A stretch of DNA of 13,692 bases from the NCBI GenBank assembly GCA_031275915.1, contig JAISOC010000015.1, forward strand, positions 1 to 13,692, in the 5' to 3' direction. The position numbers and the translations under genes are program-made. The stretch's first letter is position 1. Each line of letters opens with the position of its first letter. The stretch comes from Holosporales bacterium. Lineage in GTDB: Bacteria; Pseudomonadota; Alphaproteobacteria; RUG11792. Below are positions 3,864 through 12,843 of this stretch, piece by piece. The notes below the pieces were generated by a model. It was not told the DNA's origin and made no database searches. It saw nothing but the letters and a program-made list of their open reading frames with translations.

Positions 3864-4768
3864 CAATAATTCGTGATATATCAATAATAGGAGGAGGAGT
3901 ATCAGGTATGTATGCCTCCTATTGTTGTGGCATATCCTCTTTTCCCTGTTCTCTTTTTGAAACGTTGCAGCATCTTGGGGGACAGTGTTCTGCCTTTTAC
4001 CCAGATAAAAATATATACGGAGTTCCAGGATTTTCTGATACCAAGGCCTCTGATTTTATAGATTTGTTAAAAAAGCAAACGTTTTCTCTGGAATATATTC
4101 CAGATATAATTAACAAGAAAATAACGAACATCGAACAAGATACAGAGTTTTTCTCCCTAAATAACGGAGAATACATGGCGAAATATATAATATTAGCTAC
4201 AGGAATAGGAGACATGATTCCTAATATTCCAAATGATATTTCTGGTATAGATAACGACTTTGTTCATTTTTATTGTATTAGAGCTGATTTATACAAAGGC
4301 AAAGATATTATAATTGCGGGAGGTGGAGATTCAGCTGTTGATTTTGCAATCTGTATGAAATCTATAGCAAAGAGCGTTACTATTATTCACAGAAAAGATG
4401 AATTGAGGTGTGATTCTCATAAGATAGGCAAGTTAAATGATATAAACGTAAAACTTTCACACTCAATTCTTTCAATAGAAAAAAATCATAAAATTATAAC
4501 AGACAAAGGAACTTTTACAGCTGATTACATAATATTTTGCTATGGATTTAGAGCAGAGCCTGGAGCTATAGCTGGACTGACAAAACTTGGGATTTCTTTT
4601 GAAGATGATTTAATTTCTGTTGATATAGACACGATGCAAACTGGAAACAAAAAGATTTTTGCTATAGGTGACGCAATTACGTATAAAAACAAGAAGAAAA
4701 ACTTAGTTTCTTGTTTTTTTGAGGCAGATAAAGCAGTTAGGATGATAAAATTGCTGGAGTTGCAATAA
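3860..4768 (+). CDS. Ferredoxin--NADP(+) reductase, TrxR-like type; no canonical start codon
   Basis: This is an FAD/NADPH flavoprotein of the thioredoxin-reductase-like ferredoxin-NADP reductase group (YumC type), which passes electrons from NADPH to ferredoxin. The frame shows [10 protein letters not shown] (FAD-binding, residues 8-16 counted from 3860), the group-specific [19 protein letters not shown], the LATG loop, a second dinucleotide fold [13 protein letters not shown] (near 152-162), and the C-terminal IFAIGDAI. The CxxC redox pair of true thioredoxin reductases is absent. The first ATG (3908) lies after the FAD-binding glycines, so it cannot give a working protein. Upstream in frame there is no ATG, GTG or TTG, only ATA (3860, 3866) and ATT (3869). 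ATA 3860 overlaps the rpsT stop and sits seven bases after GGAG (3849-3852), so it is used here as a tentative start. At 302 residues it is somewhat short for the group (~330). Confidence 0.8.
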
Positions 4769-4770
4769 AA

Positions 4771-7338
4771 ATGAGTAAAATAATCGTAAGGGGGGCAAAA
4801 GAACACAATTTGAAAAATATAGATGTTGATATCCCAAAGAACAAATTGGTTGTTATAACAGGGCTTAGTGGATCAGGTAAATCTACATTGGCATTTGACA
4901 CTCTATATGCTGAAGGGCAAAGAAGATATGTTGAAAGCCTTTCTTCATATGCCAGACAATTCCTGAATCTGATGCCCAAACCTGATGTGGAAAAAATAGA
5001 AGGATTAAGTCCTGCAATATCTATAGAGCAAAAAACTATATCTAAAAATCCAAGATCAACGGTTGGAACAATTACAGAGATTTATGATTATTTAAGATTA
5101 TTGTTTGCAAGAATAGGAATTCCATACTCTCCTACAACTGGATTGCCAATACGAGCTCAGACAGTATCTCAAATAGCAGATACAATAATGTCCTTTCCAA
5201 AAGATTCGAAGTTATACATCCTGGCTCCAATTGTGAGACAAAGAAAAGGTGAATACAGAGTGGAACTGTGGTCAATAAAAAACCAGGGCTTTGAAAGAGT
5301 TTTTGTAGATGGAAACATGTATGAGATTGATGAAGTTCCAAATTTGCCAAAAACTCATAAACATGACATATCAATAGTTGTTGATAGATTGTTGATATCA
5401 GAAGATAACACAGCCGAACTCAGACAAAGATTGGTAAATTCAATTGAAATATCTCTTAAAAAAGCTGATGGCATAATGATAGCGAAGGACTTTACAACTG
5501 GTAAAGAAACTGTATTTTCAGAACATTTTGCATGTCCCAAATCAGGATTTTGTATACCAGAAATAGAACCAAGACTCTTTTCTTTCAACAGCCCAAAAGG
5601 GGCCTGTAAAAAATGCGCTGGGCTGGGATACAAGGGTTTTGTCGGGGGGTTTGGATATTTCGCAAATAGATTCATCGAAGATGATGATATTGAAAGCGAT
5701 TATTGTATAGAGGAGAAAGAAGTGTGCCCAGCTTGCAATGGAACTCGCTTATGTAAGGAAGCTTTGGCAATTAAGATTGACATGAAAAATATAGCAGAAA
5801 TTGCTAATATGTCGCTCGATGAAGCTCTCATTTGGTTCACTGAGGTGTGGGCCAAACTATCAGAAAAAGAAAGAAATATATCTGAAAAAATCATACAAGA
5901 AATTAAAAATAGGCTTGAATTTTTGATAAATGTAGGCCTTGAATATTTAACTTTATCAAGAGCTTCCGAAACATTATCAGGAGGAGAATCTCAAAGAATT
6001 AAATTGGCTTCGCAAATAGGATCTGGACTCACTGGTGTTATGTATGTTCTTGACGAACCCTCAATTGGTCTTCATCAAAAAGACAATAATAGGTTGATTC
6101 AGACTCTTAAAAAATTGAGAGATTACGAAAACACAGTCATAGTTGTTGAACATGATGAGGATACCATGCTTGCCTCGGATTGGATCATAGATATGGGACC
6201 ACGTGCAGGAACTCATGGAGGACAAATTATTGCTGTTGGAACTGTTGATGATATTAAAAATAGTGAGGACAGTTTAACTGGCAAATATCTATCAAGAAAA
6301 TTGTTTATACCTGTTCCAAAACACAGAAGGCGTGTTAATCTCAACAGAAGTATAGAAATTGTTGGAGCCTCTGGAAATAATCTCAAAAACATTAATGTAA
6401 AATTTCCAATTGGAGTTATAACCTGTGTTACAGGAGTTTCTGGATCAGGTAAATCCACTCTTGTTATAGACACTCTCTTTAAAGCAGCATATAACAAAAT
6501 CTCCGCTATAAAGAAAATTGATATTAAAAACGTTGAAGAAATAAAGGGACTGAGGTTGATTGATAAGGTAGTTGATATTAATCAATCTCCAATAGGAAGA
6601 ACCCCTCGCTCAAATCCTGCAACATATGTTGGCTGTTTCACAGATATCAGAAATTTATTTGCTTCTATGCCAGAGGCTAGGGCCAGAGGATACACTAGCT
6701 CTAGATTTTCATTCAATATAAAGGGAGGAAGATGTGAAGCATGTAAAGGTGATGGCATCTTGAAGATAGGCATGCATTTTCTTCCTGATGTATATGTGGA
6801 ATGCGATCAATGCCACGGAAAAAGATTTACAGCAGAAACGCTTGAGATCAGATTCAAAGAGAAAAATATATCTGATATTTTGGATATGACTATAGAGGAG
6901 GGAACAGAACTTTTCAAAAATCATCCATCTATATATCAAAAATTAGGATGCCTCAATAGAGTTGGTCTTGGATATCTGACAATAGGCCACAAGGCCACTA
7001 CCCTTTCTGGAGGAGAGGCACAAAGAGTTAAATTATCAAAAGAATTGTCCAGAAGATCTACTGGAAACACATTATACATACTGGATGAACCAACAACAGG
7101 CCTGCATATGGATGATGTGAAAAAATTGATAGAAATACTGCAGGTTTTGGCAGATCAAGGAAACACAATCGTTATTATCGAGCATAATATGGAGGTAATA
7201 AAGATAGCAGATTGGATAATAGATATGGGGCCAAATGGAGGAGTAAACGGGGGTAATATTATAATTTGTGGTACCCCAGAAACGGTGTCGACTTGCCAAG
7301 AAAGCTATACAGGGCAATTTTTGAAAAAGCATTTATGA
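4771..7338 (+). CDS. uvrA: UvrABC excinuclease subunit A, lacking most of the insertion domain
   Basis: UvrA is the damage-recognition ATPase of nucleotide excision repair and loads UvrB on DNA. The two ABC halves are clear: Walker [10 protein letters not shown] (about residue 31), ABC signature LSGGESQR (about 402) and Walker [12 protein letters not shown]; then Walker [10 protein letters not shown] (about 557), signature LSGGEAQR and [11 protein letters not shown]. The UvrB-binding region (about 115-250) and the second zinc module (CEAC...CDQC) are present. At 855 residues it is about 85 shorter than the usual 940-950. The loss falls between the first zinc module ([10 protein letters not shown], near 282) and CPACNGTRL, where only about 35 residues replace the insertion domain. 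In the first zinc module the expected CPxC reads CPKSGFC, so one cysteine is displaced by three positions. It starts two bases after the reductase stop; GGAG lies at 4756-4759. Confidence 0.95.
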
Positions 7339-7349
7339 TTACGGAGAAT

Positions 7350-7426
7350 TGGTGGGCCCTGTAGGACTCGAACCTACGACAACTCCGTTATGAGCGGAGG
7401 GTTCTGACCAACTGAACTAAAGGCCC
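7350..7426 (-). tRNA. tRNA with CAU anticodon, probably tRNA-Ile2 (lysidine type)
   Basis: The minus strand folds as a complete 77-base tRNA. The acceptor is GGGCCTT/AGGGCCC, the D arm GTTC/GAAC with a nine-base loop containing GG, the anticodon stem CTCCG/CGGAG with loop CTCATAA (anticodon CAT), and the T arm GTAGG-TTCGAGT-CCTAC. The discriminator is A and the 3' CCA is encoded. CAU could mean Met or Ile2. The consecutive C4-G69 and C5-G68 pairs are those used by TilS to pick tRNA-Ile2 for lysidine modification, and the acceptor differs from initiator tRNA, so Ile2 is preferred. It is convergent with uvrA, only 11 bases away. Confidence 0.93.
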
Positions 7427-7436
7427 AACGCCTCAA

Positions 7437-7465
7437 AATCTATCACATAACTCATGTTCGGGCAA
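7437..7465 (-). promoter_or_regulatory. Predicted promoter of the CAU tRNA
   Basis: On the minus strand TTGCCC (7465-7460) and TAGATT (7442-7437) are 17 bases apart, and the -10 ends 10 bases before the first base of the tRNA. The spacing is ideal and the hexamers match moderately. The rest of 7427-7545 shows no gene. Confidence 0.45.
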
Positions 7466-7545
7466 TATTGTTTATGAGGCTGTATAAGTTCATAAGATAT
7501 GAGACAACACATTGGTGCGCTTACATGATCGATGATATTTTCTTC

Positions 7546-9375
7546 TTAGACCACGTTTGTATCTTCAAGTTCGTCTGCTATATCCCACAAAGAAATGTAT
7601 GCTTGTGCAAGAAAGGTCACCAGATTTGCATATTGTGCATCTTGATTAATTGATTCTACTCCCTTGGAGAAGGCAGAAGATACTAGGGAGGTAGCAGACA
7701 ATGCTCGCACAAATGTTCCCTGCAGTCCTGTCATATTGACTATTGCTGCTACAAATTTTGATAGAATAGAGACAGCATATATACCCTTTCCGAATTTGTT
7801 TCCTCGTTGGATTGACGATGTTTGTTTGTCCATTAATTTTTTAATTTGCGAAAACGTAACTAAGTGTTGAGTTAGTGTTGTATTGTTCTGGTATAGTTGA
7901 TTATTAGAAGTAATATGAGTATTTATTTGAGTATGTATATTCATTATATTTTTAACAGCATTAAAAATTGTTTCTTTGCCTGCCTCACTGAATGATATTG
8001 TGGACTGATTTTGTGAGGAGTTTAAAATGTTTTTAATTTTTGATCCAAGCCTATACCCGTATCCTGTTGCAATACCATCAGACACAGTTGTAACAGCCAT
8101 ACCTATCATCAAAGAATAATGATCCCAAAATAAGGTTGATACGATATTAAATATGTCTGTTGTAAATCCAGAAACAAGTCCCCATACATTTGCCCAGAAC
8201 AGTCTTTTGGAGTACTTTAAGAAATTTTGATCATTTTGTGAAGAAAACCCCTCCTTTTCCTCCTGCAATTTAGCTGCCTGCAATACAATTGGCTTAAATA
8301 GAGGATTATCAGCAAAATCTAGTAATTGATCCATTATCAGTGCTTTTTCTGATGATTGTGACGTAGTTGTAACCAAGGCCACTCTTTCTTTGAGAGATAG
8401 ATTGGTAGTTTTTTCCTGGGATGATACTACTGCGTTTATTTTGGAGGTAAATTCGATAATATCTTCTGGACTTAATGTTAAATATGTATTATTTTTCAAA
8501 ATTTCGCTTAAACTAATTTTTGCTTGATTATTGTTTTCATGGCAGTCATGTTGCCTCAAAGTCTTGCTAAATTGCTGAACAAAAAAATTCTGTAATACAT
8601 TTCTAACATTAGGATTCTGCAAGACCACATGCTGTTGATTTATTATCTTCCCAAAACAAGAAACTAAAAATTTCAATAATGTATCTTTATCTTCAGGACT
8701 TTCTGTGATTTCAGGATAGAGATTTAATATTGTCTCAAACTCATCCTCTATTTGAAATTGTGAATTTGAAATTTGAGATAGGCTTTCTAGTGAAGAGGAA
8801 TCTAAATTATCTTCAAAAGATTGATTCATACACACTTCACAAATATTTTGATCCATTTGTAGATTGAAAAATTCTGCCTGTGTTCCTGGAAGAGTATTTG
8901 TGGATTGTTGCCCTTCGAAAATTATCGATGGAGTTTGAAGAGGAATTTTAATTGTTGTATTAGAGCGACTGTTATTTTGAGAACAAAAATTATGGGGAGA
9001 TATAGCCTCCTTTGGAGAAGAAGCTTCATCCTTAGTTGATTCAATATGCTGTTTTGTTTTTTGAAACCATTTTTTTGCTGCTCTTGCTGCTGCGGAAGGG
9101 ATTTTTTCATTTGTCTGCACTGGACTAGTAATTGTAGGAGATGTACTATTAGCTGCTCTATGACTATTTCCTTTTTCCTTTATAATATCAAAAGCTATAG
9201 ATTTTATGCTTGTTTTTGGTTTTGCGCTTACTATGATTCCTGAAGCATTCAAGGATGTTTTATGAAATTGTTCGTCAGGCTGTTGGTCTCCAAAAGAAGA
9301 TGCGTTACAACAATAAAATAATAGAAAGAATTGGGCAATTAATGAAGTAGTTATATGTCTCTTCATTTTTGTCAT
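7546..9375 (-). CDS. Large exported protein of unknown function with hydrophobic C-terminal region
   Basis: I do not recognise this ~609-residue protein. The start is placed at ATG 9375, four bases after GGAA, rather than at an upstream TTG (9405); ATG 9366 is also possible. The N-terminus MTKMKRHITTSLIAQFFLLFYCCNASS is a typical Sec signal peptide with likely cleavage after CNA. Then come about 300 residues rich in Ser, Gln, Asn, Thr and Pro that look disordered, with a CEVC pair. A more helical part follows, and two hydrophobic stretches: WANVWGLVSGFTTDIFNIVS through MIGMAVTTVSDGIATGYGY (about residues 390-445 here), and GIYAVSILSKFVAAIVNMTG through ATSLVSSAFSKG (about 525-570). These could be membrane-inserting helices. 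It is divergent from the six-cysteine gene. The layout (signal, disordered region, hydrophobic hairpins) would suit a secreted or surface host-interaction protein, but that is inference only. Confidence 0.8.
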   Translation of the reverse strand: MTKMKRHITTSLIAQFFLLFYCCNASSFGDQQPDEQFHKTSLNASGIIVSAKPKTSIKSIAFDIIKEKGNSHRAANSTSPTITSPVQTNEKIPSAAARAAKKWFQKTKQHIESTKDEASSPKEAISPHNFCSQNNSRSNTTIKIPLQTPSIIFEGQQSTNTLPGTQAEFFNLQMDQNICEVCMNQSFEDNLDSSSLESLSQISNSQFQIEDEFETILNLYPEITESPEDKDTLLKFLVSCFGKIINQQHVVLQNPNVRNVLQNFFVQQFSKTLRQHDCHENNNQAKISLSEILKNNTYLTLSPEDIIEFTSKINAVVSSQEKTTNLSLKERVALVTTTSQSSEKALIMDQLLDFADNPLFKPIVLQAAKLQEEKEGFSSQNDQNFLKYSKRLFWANVWGLVSGFTTDIFNIVSTLFWDHYSLMIGMAVTTVSDGIATGYGYRLGSKIKNILNSSQNQSTISFSEAGKETIFNAVKNIMNIHTQINTHITSNNQLYQNNTTLTQHLVTFSQIKKLMDKQTSSIQRGNKFGKGIYAVSILSKFVAAIVNMTGLQGTFVRALSATSLVSSAFSKGVESINQDAQYANLVTFLAQAYISLWDIADELEDTNVV

Positions 9376-9436
9376 ATGTTTCCAAACAAAATACGACCTA
9401 TGCAATATACTGCACCAATATTAATTGGCTTTCAAG

Positions 9437-9474
9437 AAATAATGTTGTTTACTGCAAATAAATAATATTGTTTA
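9437..9474. repeat. Imperfect 15-bp direct repeat in the divergent intergenic region
   Basis: AAATAATGTTGTTTA (9437-9451) recurs as AAATAATATTGTTTA (9460-9474), with one mismatch and a 23-bp period. It lies in the 9376-9680 gap between two divergent exported-protein genes, where paired operator sites would be expected. Chance repetition in such AT-rich DNA cannot be excluded. The rest of this ~300-bp gap holds a T-rich tract (9498-9514) and the promoter below, but no gene. Confidence 0.35.
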
Positions 9475-9612
9475 ACAACAGTCTCAATAATAAATGATCT
9501 TTTTATTTTTTTTATTAATAACAGTGTTCTATCGCCTAACAATCACAGAGAAAAACCAAGAGCTACCAGCTTATCCCGAAGTATGTGCATCTATACAACG
9601 CCAGAATTATTA

Positions 9613-9641
9613 TTGCAAAACATTGATAAGTATTATACAAT
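9613..9641 (+). promoter_or_regulatory. Predicted sigma-70 promoter of the six-cysteine protein gene
   Basis: TTGCAA (9613-9618) and TACAAT (9636-9641) are 17 bases apart, a strong sigma-70 match. Transcription would begin around 9648, right at the shared GGTTATTAAACA motif, about 33 bases before the chosen start codon. Confidence 0.55.
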
Positions 9642-9648
9642 ATATATA

Positions 9649-9660
9649 GGTTATTAAACA
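9649..9660 (+). promoter_or_regulatory. Shared 12-base leader motif, copy 1
   Basis: GGTTATTAAACA here is identical to 10266-10277 upstream of the glycosyltransferase gene. In each case it lies 4-7 bases before the ribosome binding site. It could be a protein- or RNA-binding site that co-regulates the two genes. Confidence 0.4.
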
Positions 9661-9680
9661 TGCTTTCGGGAGAAGAAACA

Positions 9681-10121
9681 ATGTTAAAATTATGTGTATA
9701 CTTATTTATGCTTGGTGAAGTCATTATTTCGTCACTATGTGCATCACGAGATGAAGATTTAATATCATCTGAAAATAATGACATAAACATAGATGCTCAA
9801 ACAATGGATACAAATCCATCAGATGCTCAAAATGACAGAGAAGAACAAATGAGACAGCAATTAAATCAATATCTTTGTGATAATTTCGTGCAAGATGAAT
9901 TATTTGAAGGGACAGTAGCTGCAATGAATGATCTCATTCATAAGGGATGCTATTTTCCTGCAACATTTGAAGAAAATGAATGGCTTATACTGTGTATATA
10001 CTCAGAGCTTCAATGTTACGTATCAAAAGAACAACTTGCCCAATGTATGAAAACTGGAGATTGGAACTGTTTAAACGCCATATACTCATATAGACAGGTC
10101 GCAGAAAGAACCCACCTTTGA
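9681..10121 (+). CDS. Small exported six-cysteine protein, unknown function
   Basis: I do not recognise this 146-residue protein. ATG 9681 is chosen because GGGAGAAG (9668-9675) precedes it at good spacing. The in-frame ATG at 9660 would add seven residues, overlap the shared motif and lacks a binding site. The N-terminus MLKLCVYLFMLGEVIISSLCAS is a short signal peptide (one acidic residue in its core is unusual), probably cut after LCA. Next comes an acidic Asp/Asn/Glu-rich stretch (about residues 20-60), then a compact domain with six cysteines at YLC, KGC, ILC, LQC, AQC and NC. An even number of cysteines in an exported protein suggests three disulfide bonds. The gene lies 170 bp upstream of the glycosyltransferase in the same direction and may be its partner. 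Secreted adaptor, inhibitor or effector are all open. Confidence 0.75.
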   Translation: MLKLCVYLFMLGEVIISSLCASRDEDLISSENNDINIDAQTMDTNPSDAQNDREEQMRQQLNQYLCDNFVQDELFEGTVAAMNDLIHKGCYFPATFEENEWLILCIYSELQCYVSKEQLAQCMKTGDWNCLNAIYSYRQVAERTHL

Positions 10122-10128
10122 GCAAAAA

Positions 10129-10145
10129 CAGCATTAGCTATGCTG
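10129..10145 (+). repeat. Short hairpin after the six-cysteine gene
   Basis: CAGCAT-TAGCT-ATGCTG forms a 6-bp perfect stem with a 5-base loop, starting seven bases after the TGA stop. No T-run follows, so a standard intrinsic terminator is not supported. It could stabilise or attenuate transcription into the next gene. Confidence 0.4.
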
Positions 10146-10180
10146 ACCTGAAACATCACCTGGAAACACAACCATTGGAC

Positions 10181-10217
10181 CTTTGTGAAATGGTATGAGT
10201 TTTGAAATTTCACAAAG
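10181..10217 (+). repeat. 11-bp perfect inverted repeat upstream of the glycosyltransferase gene
   Basis: CTTTGTGAAAT (10181-10191) and ATTTCACAAAG (10207-10217) are exact inverted repeats with a 15-base loop. ACCA (10171) and TGGT (10224) extend the symmetry outward. No T-run follows. It lies about 75 bases before the glycosyltransferase start, so an operator or an RNA hairpin in the leader is possible. Confidence 0.5.
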
Positions 10218-10265
10218 CTTGACTGGTAAGGACACATGTGAGATCCTGATAGCGGGGATGTGAAG

Positions 10266-10277
10266 GGTTATTAAACA
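10266..10277 (+). promoter_or_regulatory. Shared 12-base leader motif, copy 2
   Basis: GGTTATTAAACA is an exact match to 9649-9660. It is followed after four bases by the ribosome binding site AGGGGGG (10282-10288) of the glycosyltransferase. No copy was seen elsewhere in the window, including before the divergent large exported-protein gene. Confidence 0.4.
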
Positions 10278-10291
10278 GGTTAGGGGGGATC

Positions 10292-11380
10292 ATGAAAGGG
10301 GCATTATTATCTTTGGCAGCTGTTCTTTTATGTGTTACTAATTTATCTAAAGCAGCAAGCAGTGATATGCAATCAATTAAACGTATCGTTGTTAATGAAG
10401 CAGAATTACCATTTATAGACTTACCAGGTTACCAAAAAGCAGATATATCAGGACCAGTAGTTCCATGGAATAAACTAAAGACATATGATCAATCTGAAAT
10501 AATTAATGTAGTTTTTGTATCAGACAGAAAATACCTTGAGCCTACACATACTGCTATAATATCTATATTTAAGAACTCTAAATATATTGAACGTAATGAA
10601 CCAATAAGATTTACTATTGTATTCGATGAAGCGGAGTTTAACGGAACTCTTGATAATGATATGAGCAGATTTTTAAATGCTTTTTTCTTAACGTTTGATA
10701 GAGATATTTATAAGTATGATATAGAGTATATTCCTGTTCCTAAAGAAGAAAGAGAATGTATGCTCAGGTTTGATACGTATTCTTGGACTAAAAACGTATC
10801 ACTAAGATTATTCCTTAGTAGATTTATTCAGCACAACAAATGCATATATCTAGATGGTGATATAGCATGCGTAGGTGATATAAGAAAAATGTGGAATTTA
10901 AATTTAAAAGATAAATGTTTTGGGGCAGCTGGCTATAGATCTACCGCAAACGTGAAAGATCATATTAACGGAGGAAGTTTGTTGTTAAACTTGGAGTATA
11001 TGAGAAAGGTAAAATTTGGGAATGAAATAGAGAAAATCTTAGAGGATGGAAAAAATGTGAGGAAAAGTGGACGTTTTACAGATGAACATGCATTAGATAA
11101 ATATAGTGTCCTGTATCCGAATCGACGTTTAATGCTCCCGTATGAATTCAATGTCGGCGTTATGACCATTCCGAAACAATTTTCTGGACAACCTACCAAT
11201 ACTTTAGAAGTCACGATCATACACTACTACGGAGGCTCCAAACCGTGGAAACATTGGTCAAAGGTTTCAAATTGTGTAGATCATAGCTCTTGGCGGCAGT
11301 CAGATTGGGCTCTTAACGAATGGGGCGAGTGCTATCAACAGCTGCTAATGGTTGAAGATCTCTCTGGGAACACTGATTAG
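10292..11380 (+). CDS. GT8-family glycosyltransferase with Sec signal peptide (exported)
   Basis: The 362-residue product is a GT-A fold, retaining glycosyltransferase of family GT8, the family of LPS galactosyl/glucosyltransferases and glycogenin. Visible motifs are INVVFVSDRKYLEPTHTAIISI (nucleotide-sugar binding, about residues 71-92), KCIYLDGDIACVGDI with the metal-binding DGD at 188-190, NGGSLLLNL at 226-234, DEHALDKY from 264, and HYYGGSKPW at 311-319, whose His completes the metal site. All expected catalytic elements are kept. Unusually, it starts MKGALLSLAAVLLCVTNLSKA, a textbook signal peptide with cleavage after SKA; bacterial GT8 enzymes normally work in the cytoplasm. The RBS is AGGGGGG, three bases before ATG. 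Donor and acceptor cannot be read from sequence. An exported enzyme would find no nucleotide sugar in the periplasm, so action on host material is a plausible inference. Confidence 0.9.
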   Translation: MKGALLSLAAVLLCVTNLSKAASSDMQSIKRIVVNEAELPFIDLPGYQKADISGPVVPWNKLKTYDQSEIINVVFVSDRKYLEPTHTAIISIFKNSKYIERNEPIRFTIVFDEAEFNGTLDNDMSRFLNAFFLTFDRDIYKYDIEYIPVPKEERECMLRFDTYSWTKNVSLRLFLSRFIQHNKCIYLDGDIACVGDIRKMWNLNLKDKCFGAAGYRSTANVKDHINGGSLLLNLEYMRKVKFGNEIEKILEDGKNVRKSGRFTDEHALDKYSVLYPNRRLMLPYEFNVGVMTIPKQFSGQPTNTLEVTIIHYYGGSKPWKHWSKVSNCVDHSSWRQSDWALNEWGECYQQLLMVEDLSGNTD

Positions 11381-11443
11381 CATTTTGTTTTTATATCCAA
11401 CAGCGACGGTGTTGAACTCTTCATGAAATTACCGGAAATTCAG

Positions 11444-11472
11444 TTGTGTGATAACTAGATATTTAGTAAAAT
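11444..11472 (+). promoter_or_regulatory. Predicted promoter of tRNA-Gly
   Basis: TTGTGT (11444-11449) and TAAAAT (11467-11472) are 17 bases apart and the -10 ends 15 bases before the tRNA. The spacing supports its own transcription start for the tRNA, independent of the glycosyltransferase gene. Confidence 0.5.
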
Positions 11473-11487
11473 TCAACAAAATCCAGG

Positions 11488-11561
11488 GCGGACGTAGTTC
11501 AATGGTAGAACACGAGCTTCCCAAGCTCGCAGCGTGGGTCCGATTCCCATCGTCCGCTCCA
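11488..11561 (+). tRNA. tRNA-Gly (CCC anticodon)
   Basis: The 74-base sequence folds fully: acceptor GCGGACG/CGTCCGC, D arm GTTC/GAAC with AATGGTA, anticodon stem CGAGC/GCTCG with loop TTCCCAA (anticodon CCC, reading GGG), T stem GTGGG/CCCAT (one G-U pair), discriminator T and encoded CCA. The T loop is TCCGATT instead of the near-universal TTCGATT, so position 55, normally the TruB-made pseudouridine, is C. It ends seven bases from the hisS stop, convergent with hisS. Confidence 0.94.
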
Positions 11562-11568
11562 TCGTTTC

Positions 11569-12843
11569 CTACGTAACTGTCTTTTCTTCGTGAAATTTTG
11601 CAAATCTGGTTACTTCTTCCATGTTTATTGTGGTACTTTTATCTTTTTCATCAGTTATTCTCATAAATTTTACAGTTATGGTTTTGTCCTTTTTTTCTCG
11701 TTCTCCGATTATGAATACAATGTCACATCCGAGTCTGTCTGCTATTTTCATTTTTTTCCCAATATTCCCAGAGGCTATAAATTCGCATAATATTGAACAA
11801 TTGTGTAATGTGCGCATGATCTTGAAGGCTATGTCATTTTCACTATCTGAGACTGAAACGACTGCAAATCTAGTAGTTTTCTGTAAAACAGCGTTATCGT
11901 TGATGAGGGACATGACTCTCTCAGCTCCAAATGCAAATCCAACCCCAGAAACATCAGGACCCCCAAACATTTTAACCAGATTATCATAACGACCTCCCCC
12001 TCCAACTGAGCCTACATTCTTTGCGGATGTTTTTATTTCAAAGGCAGTGTGAGTGTAATAATCCAGTCCCCTTACCAAAAAATTATCCACTTCATAGGGT
12101 ACCCCGTGTTCTTCGAGAATCTGGCAAACTTTTGAGAAATATGCTTCAGATTCTTTGTTCAAATAATCTCCCATTATTGGAGCCATCGAACAAACCTCTA
12201 TATCTTCTGCTTCCTTTGAATCTAGTATTCGCAAAGGATTTGTTTTGAGTCTTCTTTTGGAGTCTTCTGACAATTTCTGCTCATGCCTTGAAAAATATTT
12301 AACAACGGCCTTTGTGTAGGAAGATTTGCTTTCTTCATCTCCAAGTGTATTGATTGCCATCTTAAATTCAAAAATCCCAACAGCGTACAAAATATCAGAG
12401 GCCAAGAGAATTGTTAAGGCATCCACGTGTGGAGTCTTATCTCCTATATTTTCGAATCCTATTTGATGAAATTGCCTGTATCTTCCTTTTTGGGGCCTGT
12501 CATACCTAAACATAGGTCCATAATACATAAGTTTGATAGGAAGGCTCTGGGTTATATTATTAGTCACAATGGCTCTTATAATCCCAGCTGTTCCCTCTGG
12601 ACGCAAGGTTACTGACTCATCCCCCCTATCGAGAAAAGTGTACATTTCCTTGGATACAACATCAGTCTCATCTCCTATGGATCTTTGAAAAACCTCTGTG
12701 TATTCTAGGATCGGAGTTTCCATTATCTTGTATCCGTGCTGCATGGCTACTTTTATAGATCTCTCGATGAGATAGTTATATTTAATGATATCCAGATCAT
12801 ACAGATCTTTCATTCCCCTGACTGTTCTAAAGGCTGATGACAT
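11569..12843 (-). CDS. hisS: Histidyl-tRNA synthetase
   Basis: This class II synthetase attaches histidine to tRNA-His in the cytoplasm. The 424-residue product matches the usual ~420. It shows the N-terminal VRGMKDLYDLD, TLRPEGTAGIIRA (79-91), motif 2 MFRYDRPQKGRYRQFHQIGFE (111-131), the histidine-specific LVRGLDYYTHTAFEI (256-270), motif 3 GGGGRYDNLV with GVGFAFGAERV (281-310), and a C-terminal anticodon-binding domain. The motif 2 loop is the ordinary bacterial form, not the divergent form of those alphaproteobacteria whose tRNA-His lacks the extra G-1. The RBS AGGAAAG lies four bases before ATG. It sits downstream of rph on the same strand with a 29-bp gap and is probably cotranscribed. 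Confidence 0.97.
   Translation of the reverse strand: MSSAFRTVRGMKDLYDLDIIKYNYLIERSIKVAMQHGYKIMETPILEYTEVFQRSIGDETDVVSKEMYTFLDRGDESVTLRPEGTAGIIRAIVTNNITQSLPIKLMYYGPMFRYDRPQKGRYRQFHQIGFENIGDKTPHVDALTILLASDILYAVGIFEFKMAINTLGDEESKSSYTKAVVKYFSRHEQKLSEDSKRRLKTNPLRILDSKEAEDIEVCSMAPIMGDYLNKESEAYFSKVCQILEEHGVPYEVDNFLVRGLDYYTHTAFEIKTSAKNVGSVGGGGRYDNLVKMFGGPDVSGVGFAFGAERVMSLINDNAVLQKTTRFAVVSVSDSENDIAFKIMRTLHNCSILCEFIASGNIGKKMKIADRLGCDIVFIIGEREKKDKTITVKFMRITDEKDKSTTINMEEVTRFAKFHEEKTVT

Follow-up and report, generated by a model that had tools for sequence, protein, structure and literature searches.

Exported-looking GT8 glycosyltransferases and a reused poly-G leader in the genome of a Holosporales bacterium

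Introduction

In the draft genome of a Holosporales bacterium (GenBank assembly GCA_031275915.1), about 4 kb between two tRNA genes hold a gene for a GT8 glycosyltransferase and two further genes, here called BIG and SMALL, and all three predicted products look exported. The question raised by this locus is whether it is a secreted-factor cassette gained at tRNA genes, as a reading of the sequence alone had proposed, or an ordinary part of the genome. The window analyzed is the whole of contig JAISOC010000015.1 (13,692 nucleotides; C68 in our numbering), one of 112 contigs of a 727,082-bp draft that is 85% complete. The explanation that best fits the locus as a whole, to which we give somewhat better than even confidence, is that the block is not an island, that its GT8 gene belongs to a diversifying repertoire, that a switchable poly-G leader is shared within this repertoire, and that the exported enzymes act on the host side or on the symbiont surface.

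The block between the tRNA genes

The borders of the block, and an element close to one of them, are as follows.

7350..7426, minus strand: tRNA-Met (CAU), found by ARAGORN and Rfam, with its 5' end towards the block
7481..7507, plus strand: one terminus (27 bp) of a dispersed inverted-repeat element, whose 24-base core occurs 16 times in the genome when up to 3 mismatches are allowed
11488..11561, plus strand: tRNA-Gly (CCC), found by ARAGORN and Rfam, with its 5' end towards the block

Three large open reading frames (ORFs) lie between the tRNAs, BIG (7546-9405, minus strand), SMALL (9660-10121, plus strand) and GT8 (10292-11380, plus strand), and the remaining ORFs are short, in agreement with the sequence-only reading. 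That reading had also given all three genes signal peptides. Each has a signal-peptide-like N-terminus, a term that denotes here a home-made hydropathy and cleavage rule or, in the GT8 loci, a judgement by eye; by this rule all three qualify, but SMALL, with a score of 2.69, falls below the stricter threshold.

The proposed insertion at tRNA genes was not supported. Both tRNAs point their 3' ends outward, no integrase was present among the ORFs between them, none of the listed direct repeats in 7200-11800 was tRNA-derived, and the block shares its G+C range of 0.30-0.42 with the flanks, without a compositional step; a tRNA-insertion island was rejected on these grounds. A cassette of secreted factors gained laterally and inserted between the tRNA genes would be consistent with the tRNA genes on both sides, with the dispersed-element end at 7481-7507 and with the occurrence of BIG and SMALL in no other genome searched. 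However, the orientation of the tRNAs, the lack of integrase, tRNA-derived repeat and compositional step, and the presence of paralogs of BIG, SMALL and GT8 on other contigs argue against such a cassette, and we regard it as very improbable. Because of the dispersed inverted-repeat end, some rearrangement close to the block is possible. Elsewhere, an 88-bp two-ended copy of this repeat (L167:1580-1667) looks like a miniature inverted-repeat transposable element or an insertion-sequence remnant. On the hisS side, no other window gene was found in the flanks of relatives (18 and 17 loci in overlapping sets, with flanks of up to 1.5 and up to 6 kb), and of the loci scanned only that of this genome has tRNA-Gly beside hisS, with no such case in sets of 22 and 17 others.

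A row of exported proteins was also examined for its frequency in 262,703 bp of the genome's own sequence, drawn from 37 sources (the window, 8 with paralogs, 8 with the dispersed repeat and 20 at intervals) and containing 220 ORFs. Exported-like ORFs numbered 48 at a strict and 62 at a loose threshold (22-28%). Two (strict) and three (loose) runs of at least three such ORFs were seen, against 1.2 and 2.5 expected, and 74% and 95% of shuffles, respectively, contained at least one. The run in the window qualifies at the loose threshold only, where it includes uvrA, a false positive. Three exported-looking genes in a row are thus no more than chance in this genome, and the block, which had been taken for an island, is an ordinary spot where exported-looking proteins sit between housekeeping genes, one of many in the genome.

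The GT8 gene and its uneven divergence

Assignment of the third gene to GT8 was correct, and its parts are as follows.

10150..10250, plus strand: probable relic of a further GT8 gene, comprising its 3' end and the flank beyond (blastn matches of 44-64 nt, 77-82%, E 4e-4 to 1e-3)
10292..11380, plus strand: exported-looking GT8 glycosyltransferase of 362 amino acids (PF01501 at 75.2 bits, cut-off 24.3, profile positions 1-252 of 253)
10292..10354, plus strand: its predicted signal peptide, 'leader B', similar in the C95 and C62 copies and lacking a poly-G tract
10382..10915, plus strand (residues 31-208): conserved donor-binding half with the DxD motif; among seven copies or pieces, mean amino-acid identity 71% and mean synonymous divergence (dS) 0.60, with 21 of 21 pairs finite
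10916..11221, plus strand (residues 209-310): very divergent acceptor half; among the same number of copies or pieces, mean identity 35% and dS 1.77 for the 15 of 21 pairs that were finite, the rest being saturated

The protein carries LDGD as its metal-binding DxD motif and HYYGGSKPW, which agrees with the C-terminal HxxGxxKPW motif of GT8 enzymes. Sequence matches over residues 171-344 connect it with LgtC (1g9r) and another GT8 of known structure (5gvv), which have the same PF01501 domain and DxD motif. Unlike LgtC-type bacterial GT8 enzymes, which are cytoplasmic, the window family has signal-peptide-like leaders and forms a diversified multigene family. A protein search returned nine matches, three from other metagenomes and six assigned to contigs of this genome; one full-length metagenomic homologue (P0002) is 60% identical. 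An alignment search of named genomes gave no confirmed relative, and that of viral contigs gave one match at 24%.

GT8 sequences were found at eight places in the genome: in the window, on C30, C95, C102, C62 and C3, and twice on C52. Four of these extend to a contig end or are truncated by one, and the seven other copies are 45-63% identical to the window copy. Six copies with an intact start all have a signal-peptide-like leader; in the C102 copy the frame closes after the tract, and the second C52 copy is truncated. Tandem pairs occur on C52 and across C95 and C62, the latter pair following from an overlap of 119 identical bases by which the C62 gene runs into the tail of C95. In the window, the probable decayed end at 10150-10250 matches the 3' ends of the C52 and C95 copies and holds a frame with WKHNHWTFVKWYE. 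The window gene is a family member without a tract and with an open frame, and the probable remnant of a tandem partner lies upstream of it. No long simple repeat was found in its frame or promoter, and the RNA fold of the gap between SMALL and GT8 was unremarkable (z -1.5).

Synonymous divergence is not increased by selection acting on the protein, but it would be by misalignment of a stretch as divergent as the acceptor half. The C102-C62 pair is an exception to the dS contrast between the two halves, being alike in both segments (dS 0.56 and 0.81). In addition, the order of nearest copies shifts along the second C52 gene: its front part is closest to C3 (90%), followed by C30 (83%), C95 (82%), the first C52 copy (80%) and C62 (77%), whereas its 3' end is closest to the gene formed by C62 and the C95 tail (89%), followed by the first C52 copy (85%) and C95 (80%). 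Together with the dS contrast, this shift suggests that the GT8 copies are probably mosaics, formed either by conversion of the donor half or by shuffling of the acceptor half.

Contig ends truncate the C102 and C62 pieces, and neither showed the C-terminal GT8 motif. One sister copy (L033:6140-6333 together with L032:1-119) has 15-bp tandem repeats encoding YSPTSYSPA-like units in its variable half, and the contigs break there.

A poly-G leader common to GT8 and LRR genes

Long G tracts stand out in this genome. Seven runs of at least 12 G or C occur in the 262,703 bp sampled, where A runs reach at most 9 and T runs at most 9 apart from one of 14. Genome-wide, there are 15 tracts of at least 10 G, and base composition predicts far fewer than one. 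We read 16 tracts, the additional one lying at the end of a contig, and compared them with 3,200 control positions. Ten of the 16 follow an ATG-initiated signal-peptide frame of the type MKKLLLSI..., against 6.3% of controls, and the tract starts 35-36 nt after the ATG. When at least 90 open codons behind the tract are demanded as well, the figures are 5 of 16 and 3.1%. Of the other tracts, two lie behind MILPALVIVIL or a close variant, and four either are at the end of a contig or have a less convincing frame. The tracts at L148:89-111 (G23) and L163:10894-10913 (G20) belong to this second tract-bearing leader, MILPALVIVIL..., and have no long frame behind them in the sequence seen.

The first leader, leader A, recurs at the DNA level in 12 places in 285,088 bp. 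It precedes GT8 genes on C3 and C102 with a tract (G14 and G16, respectively) and on C30 and C52 with a short G6; it precedes proteins with leucine-rich repeats (LRR) on C42 and C105 and, by N-terminal likeness, on C48. On C79 and C80 it is a stub with no long frame behind, C87 ends 50 bases on, and on C18 and C81 it is cut by contig ends. Tracts of 13-15 occur in the leaders of C18, C42, C48, C79, C80, C81, C87 and C105. The LRR_5 family (PF13306) scored above cut-off in three of the four LRR-type proteins scanned (C42, C86 and C105) and below it in C26; C86 and C26 hold related proteins at contig ends, where the leader is cut or garbled. The cassette spans promoter, ribosome site and signal peptide, and is common to GT8 and BspA-type LRR genes. 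Poly-G stub cassettes with no long frame seen behind them lie at L177:4629-4641, L167:76-89 and L291:51-64, and are possibly a reservoir or remnants.

Among the tract copies with at least 90 codons behind, the frame is open on C3 and closed on C42, C48, C102 and C105, as given by a draft assembly that may err. A trait of contingency loci, a long simple repeat in the reading frame, is present in the sister copies on C3 and C102 and in the other tract-bearing leaders. Poly-G contingency loci of Neisseria, Campylobacter and Treponema also carry a long G tract, located at or close to the beginning of genes for surface proteins; here, in contrast, one tract-bearing leader is reused before unrelated GT8 and LRR genes in an alphaproteobacterium with a small genome. 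Likewise, BspA-type LRR surface proteins have the same LRR_5 repeats behind a signal-peptide leader, but in this genome the tract-bearing leader is common to LRR proteins and glycosyltransferases. On this evidence, the leader-bearing repertoire looks phase-variable and built on a reusable leader.

The tracts might instead be artefacts of sequencing or assembly, with no switching. Poly-G is known from two-colour sequencing, and some tracts do lie at contig ends (58 G in L287 and 62 G in L304). However, the tracts of 13-16 G on C3, C102, C42 and C48 have homologous leader sequence on either side, the sister copies on C30 and C52 hold G6 at the same place, and the tracts are concentrated behind signal-peptide starts. 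We consider an artefact improbable.

Occurrence in related bacteria

A GT8 protein was found in 10 of 35 genomes of the same family, including the one studied here. Complete N-termini were available for 13 of these proteins and 9 had a signal-peptide-like leader (judged by eye, with 15 of the 16 entries from other genomes read); L182, L183, L189 and L193 lacked one, and that of L184 may be an anchor. In other families of the class, 2 of 20 GT8 loci with a closed 5' end had such a leader (24 of 28 loci were read), namely L206 in G186, possibly an anchor, and L215 in G189, which has no good start nearby; these genomes are 0.9-1.2 Mb in size. Thus, as judged from these N-termini, exported-looking GT8 proteins occur often in the same family but seldom in the rest of the class.

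Runs of at least 11 G were present in 26 of the 35 family genomes, a number inflated by runs at contig ends. Distinct tracts lay behind a signal-peptide-like frame in 7 of 31 read in G008 (39 listed), against 3.9% of controls, and in 4 of 16 in G023 (16 listed), against 7.1%. By these frequencies the tract pattern is clear in the genome studied here, suggestive in G008 and G023, and seen in one case in G003. Seven proteins behind such tracts gave no Pfam match above cut-off.

What the exported enzymes may do

We suggest that the GT8 copies diversify by duplication, partly in tandem, and probably by recombination, which would leave their sugar-donor halves similar to one another and their acceptor halves free to diverge; the divergent half would set the acceptor. 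Part of this repertoire, together with exported BspA-type LRR proteins, would run from one repeated leader cassette, in which slippage in the poly-G tract would switch the individual genes on and off. GT8 enzymes use nucleotide sugars, and the bacterial periplasm has no supply of them; because of this, the exported enzymes would act outside the bacterium, where host nucleotide sugars exist. Most likely, they glycosylate host molecules or, from outside, the symbiont surface.

An alternative is that the exported-looking GT8 proteins build or decorate glycans of the bacterium's own envelope, their N-terminus being a targeting or anchor segment, with no host target. The single NCBIfam match is to lipopolysaccharide (LPS) 3-alpha-galactosyltransferase (37.9 bits against a cut-off of 461), LpxA/LpxB-like ORFs were recognised by eye on C102, and phase-variable glycosyltransferases elsewhere usually act on surface glycans. 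However, known GT8 enzymes of LPS synthesis are cytoplasmic and have no signal peptides, whereas the leaders here look cleavable, and the same leader also fronts LRR proteins. The lack of nucleotide sugars in the periplasm also speaks against an envelope role, a point that entry of host sugars through porins would soften. We consider this alternative unlikely, though clearly less so than an artefact or a transferred cassette.

Several observations weigh against the proposal of a diversifying, switchable and exported repertoire. Misalignment in a stretch with 35% identity inflates dS too, so that mosaicism is indicated but not proved, and C30 and C95 have a degenerate C-terminal GT8 motif, as has, in part, the second C52 copy. 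The window gene has G6 just before its start codon and G4 in its leader, and no long tract. Among relatives, 25 of the 35 family genomes had no GT8 match, and in G003 only 1 of 12 tracts read (16 listed) lay behind a signal-peptide-like frame, against 5.0% of controls. The draft is fragmented and may therefore misstate tract lengths and on/off states; poly-G or garbled runs of G and C stand at the ends of some contigs (L287, L290); and the signal-peptide calls are heuristic or by eye.

It is also conceivable, at somewhat less than even confidence, that this is a probably protist-associated alphaproteobacterium with a shuffled, phase-variable exported repertoire, by which cells in the same host would differ in the host glycans they modify or bind, and that related genera do likewise with other leaders. 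In the open-access literature, we found no description of poly-G contingency loci or leader reuse in the Holosporales lineage, nor of an exported GT8 as a symbiont effector. AG repeats have reportedly been noted in blood-cell bacteria including Rickettsiales, and the nearest match on slipped-strand mispairing in alphaproteobacterial symbionts is said to concern Bartonella. Phase variation is best known from bacteria that face animal immunity; if the proposal is true, its strong marks in a gut- or protist-associated alphaproteobacterium with so small a genome would mean that it can also be favoured by single-celled hosts or by competition within such hosts, and new enzymes acting on host glycans would be available from exported nucleotide-sugar glycosyltransferases whose acceptor half varies. 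The shared leader makes switching directly testable through tract lengths.

The view that the block encodes exported factors of a host-associated bacterium fits the small genome, the three exported-looking products and the relatives indicated by hisS, which are of gut, rumen or Holosporales origin. Isolate codes Gsp, Rs, Nm, Gx and Po presumably denote termite guts, and RUG the rumen. The 16 best hisS matches (53-64%) all come from genomes or metagenome-assembled genomes titled 'Holosporales bacterium' (8), 'Holosporaceae' (1), 'Alphaproteobacteria bacterium' (3) or 'uncultured proteobacterium' RUG (4), and two of the three 'Alphaproteobacteria bacterium' matches are from goat rumen and roe deer rectum. 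A review describes one clade of Paracaedibacteraceae as often coming from animal guts, termites in particular, and considers a type VI system the likeliest means of secretion in Holosporineae (PMC11909080).

BIG and SMALL

The two other genes of the block have better start codons than their longest frames suggest.

7546..9375, minus strand: BIG, an exported-looking helical protein (better start ATG 9375), whose last ~310 amino acids are 40-41% identical to a paralog on C24
9681..10121, plus strand: SMALL, exported-looking, 146 amino acids (better start ATG 9681)

Each has one distant paralog elsewhere in the genome, on C24 (BIG) and C59 (SMALL), and no GT8 was found on either contig. The suggestion that the three genes form one functional system was not supported, since these paralogs stand apart and have no GT8 with them. 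BIG and SMALL were present in 1 of 59 genomes, and a SMALL profile matched 1 of 385, in each case the genome studied here. Homologues of SMALL were limited to C59 and one metagenomic protein, P0013, whose leader matches that of SMALL and supports its start and leader. SMALL had been described as a six-cysteine protein, which is literally true of its mature form; the cysteines are not conserved, however, and a six-cysteine scaffold was rejected because a single cysteine is invariant across the three known members.

Neither protein had a family match above cut-off in Pfam, their NCBIfam and PHROGs matches were insignificant, and BIG had no sequence match in PDB. Structure models were poor, with a pLDDT of 57 for the C-terminal part of BIG (AF2, long helices) and 63 for SMALL, and gave no significant fold match. 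The best Foldseek match of the BIG C-terminal model was HblL1 (E 0.14), and several ClyA-like matches appeared among transporters and others, none of them significant. Likeness of BIG to alpha-helical pores of the ClyA/Hbl type, which comes from a predicted model, is a lead only.

Other observations

Directly after rpsT, the window contains a thioredoxin-reductase-like ORF (3908-4768) whose TIGR01292 match begins at profile position 41 and PF07992 match at 69; its N-terminal stretch binding flavin adenine dinucleotide is apparently missing or diverged. A further apparent pair of exported paralogs (L150:2018-2968 and L170:35-793) shares a leader that starts with MFMKNIL, and an exported-looking ORF at L164:1136-2872 has DIWES/NIWES pentapeptide repeats shortly past its leader.

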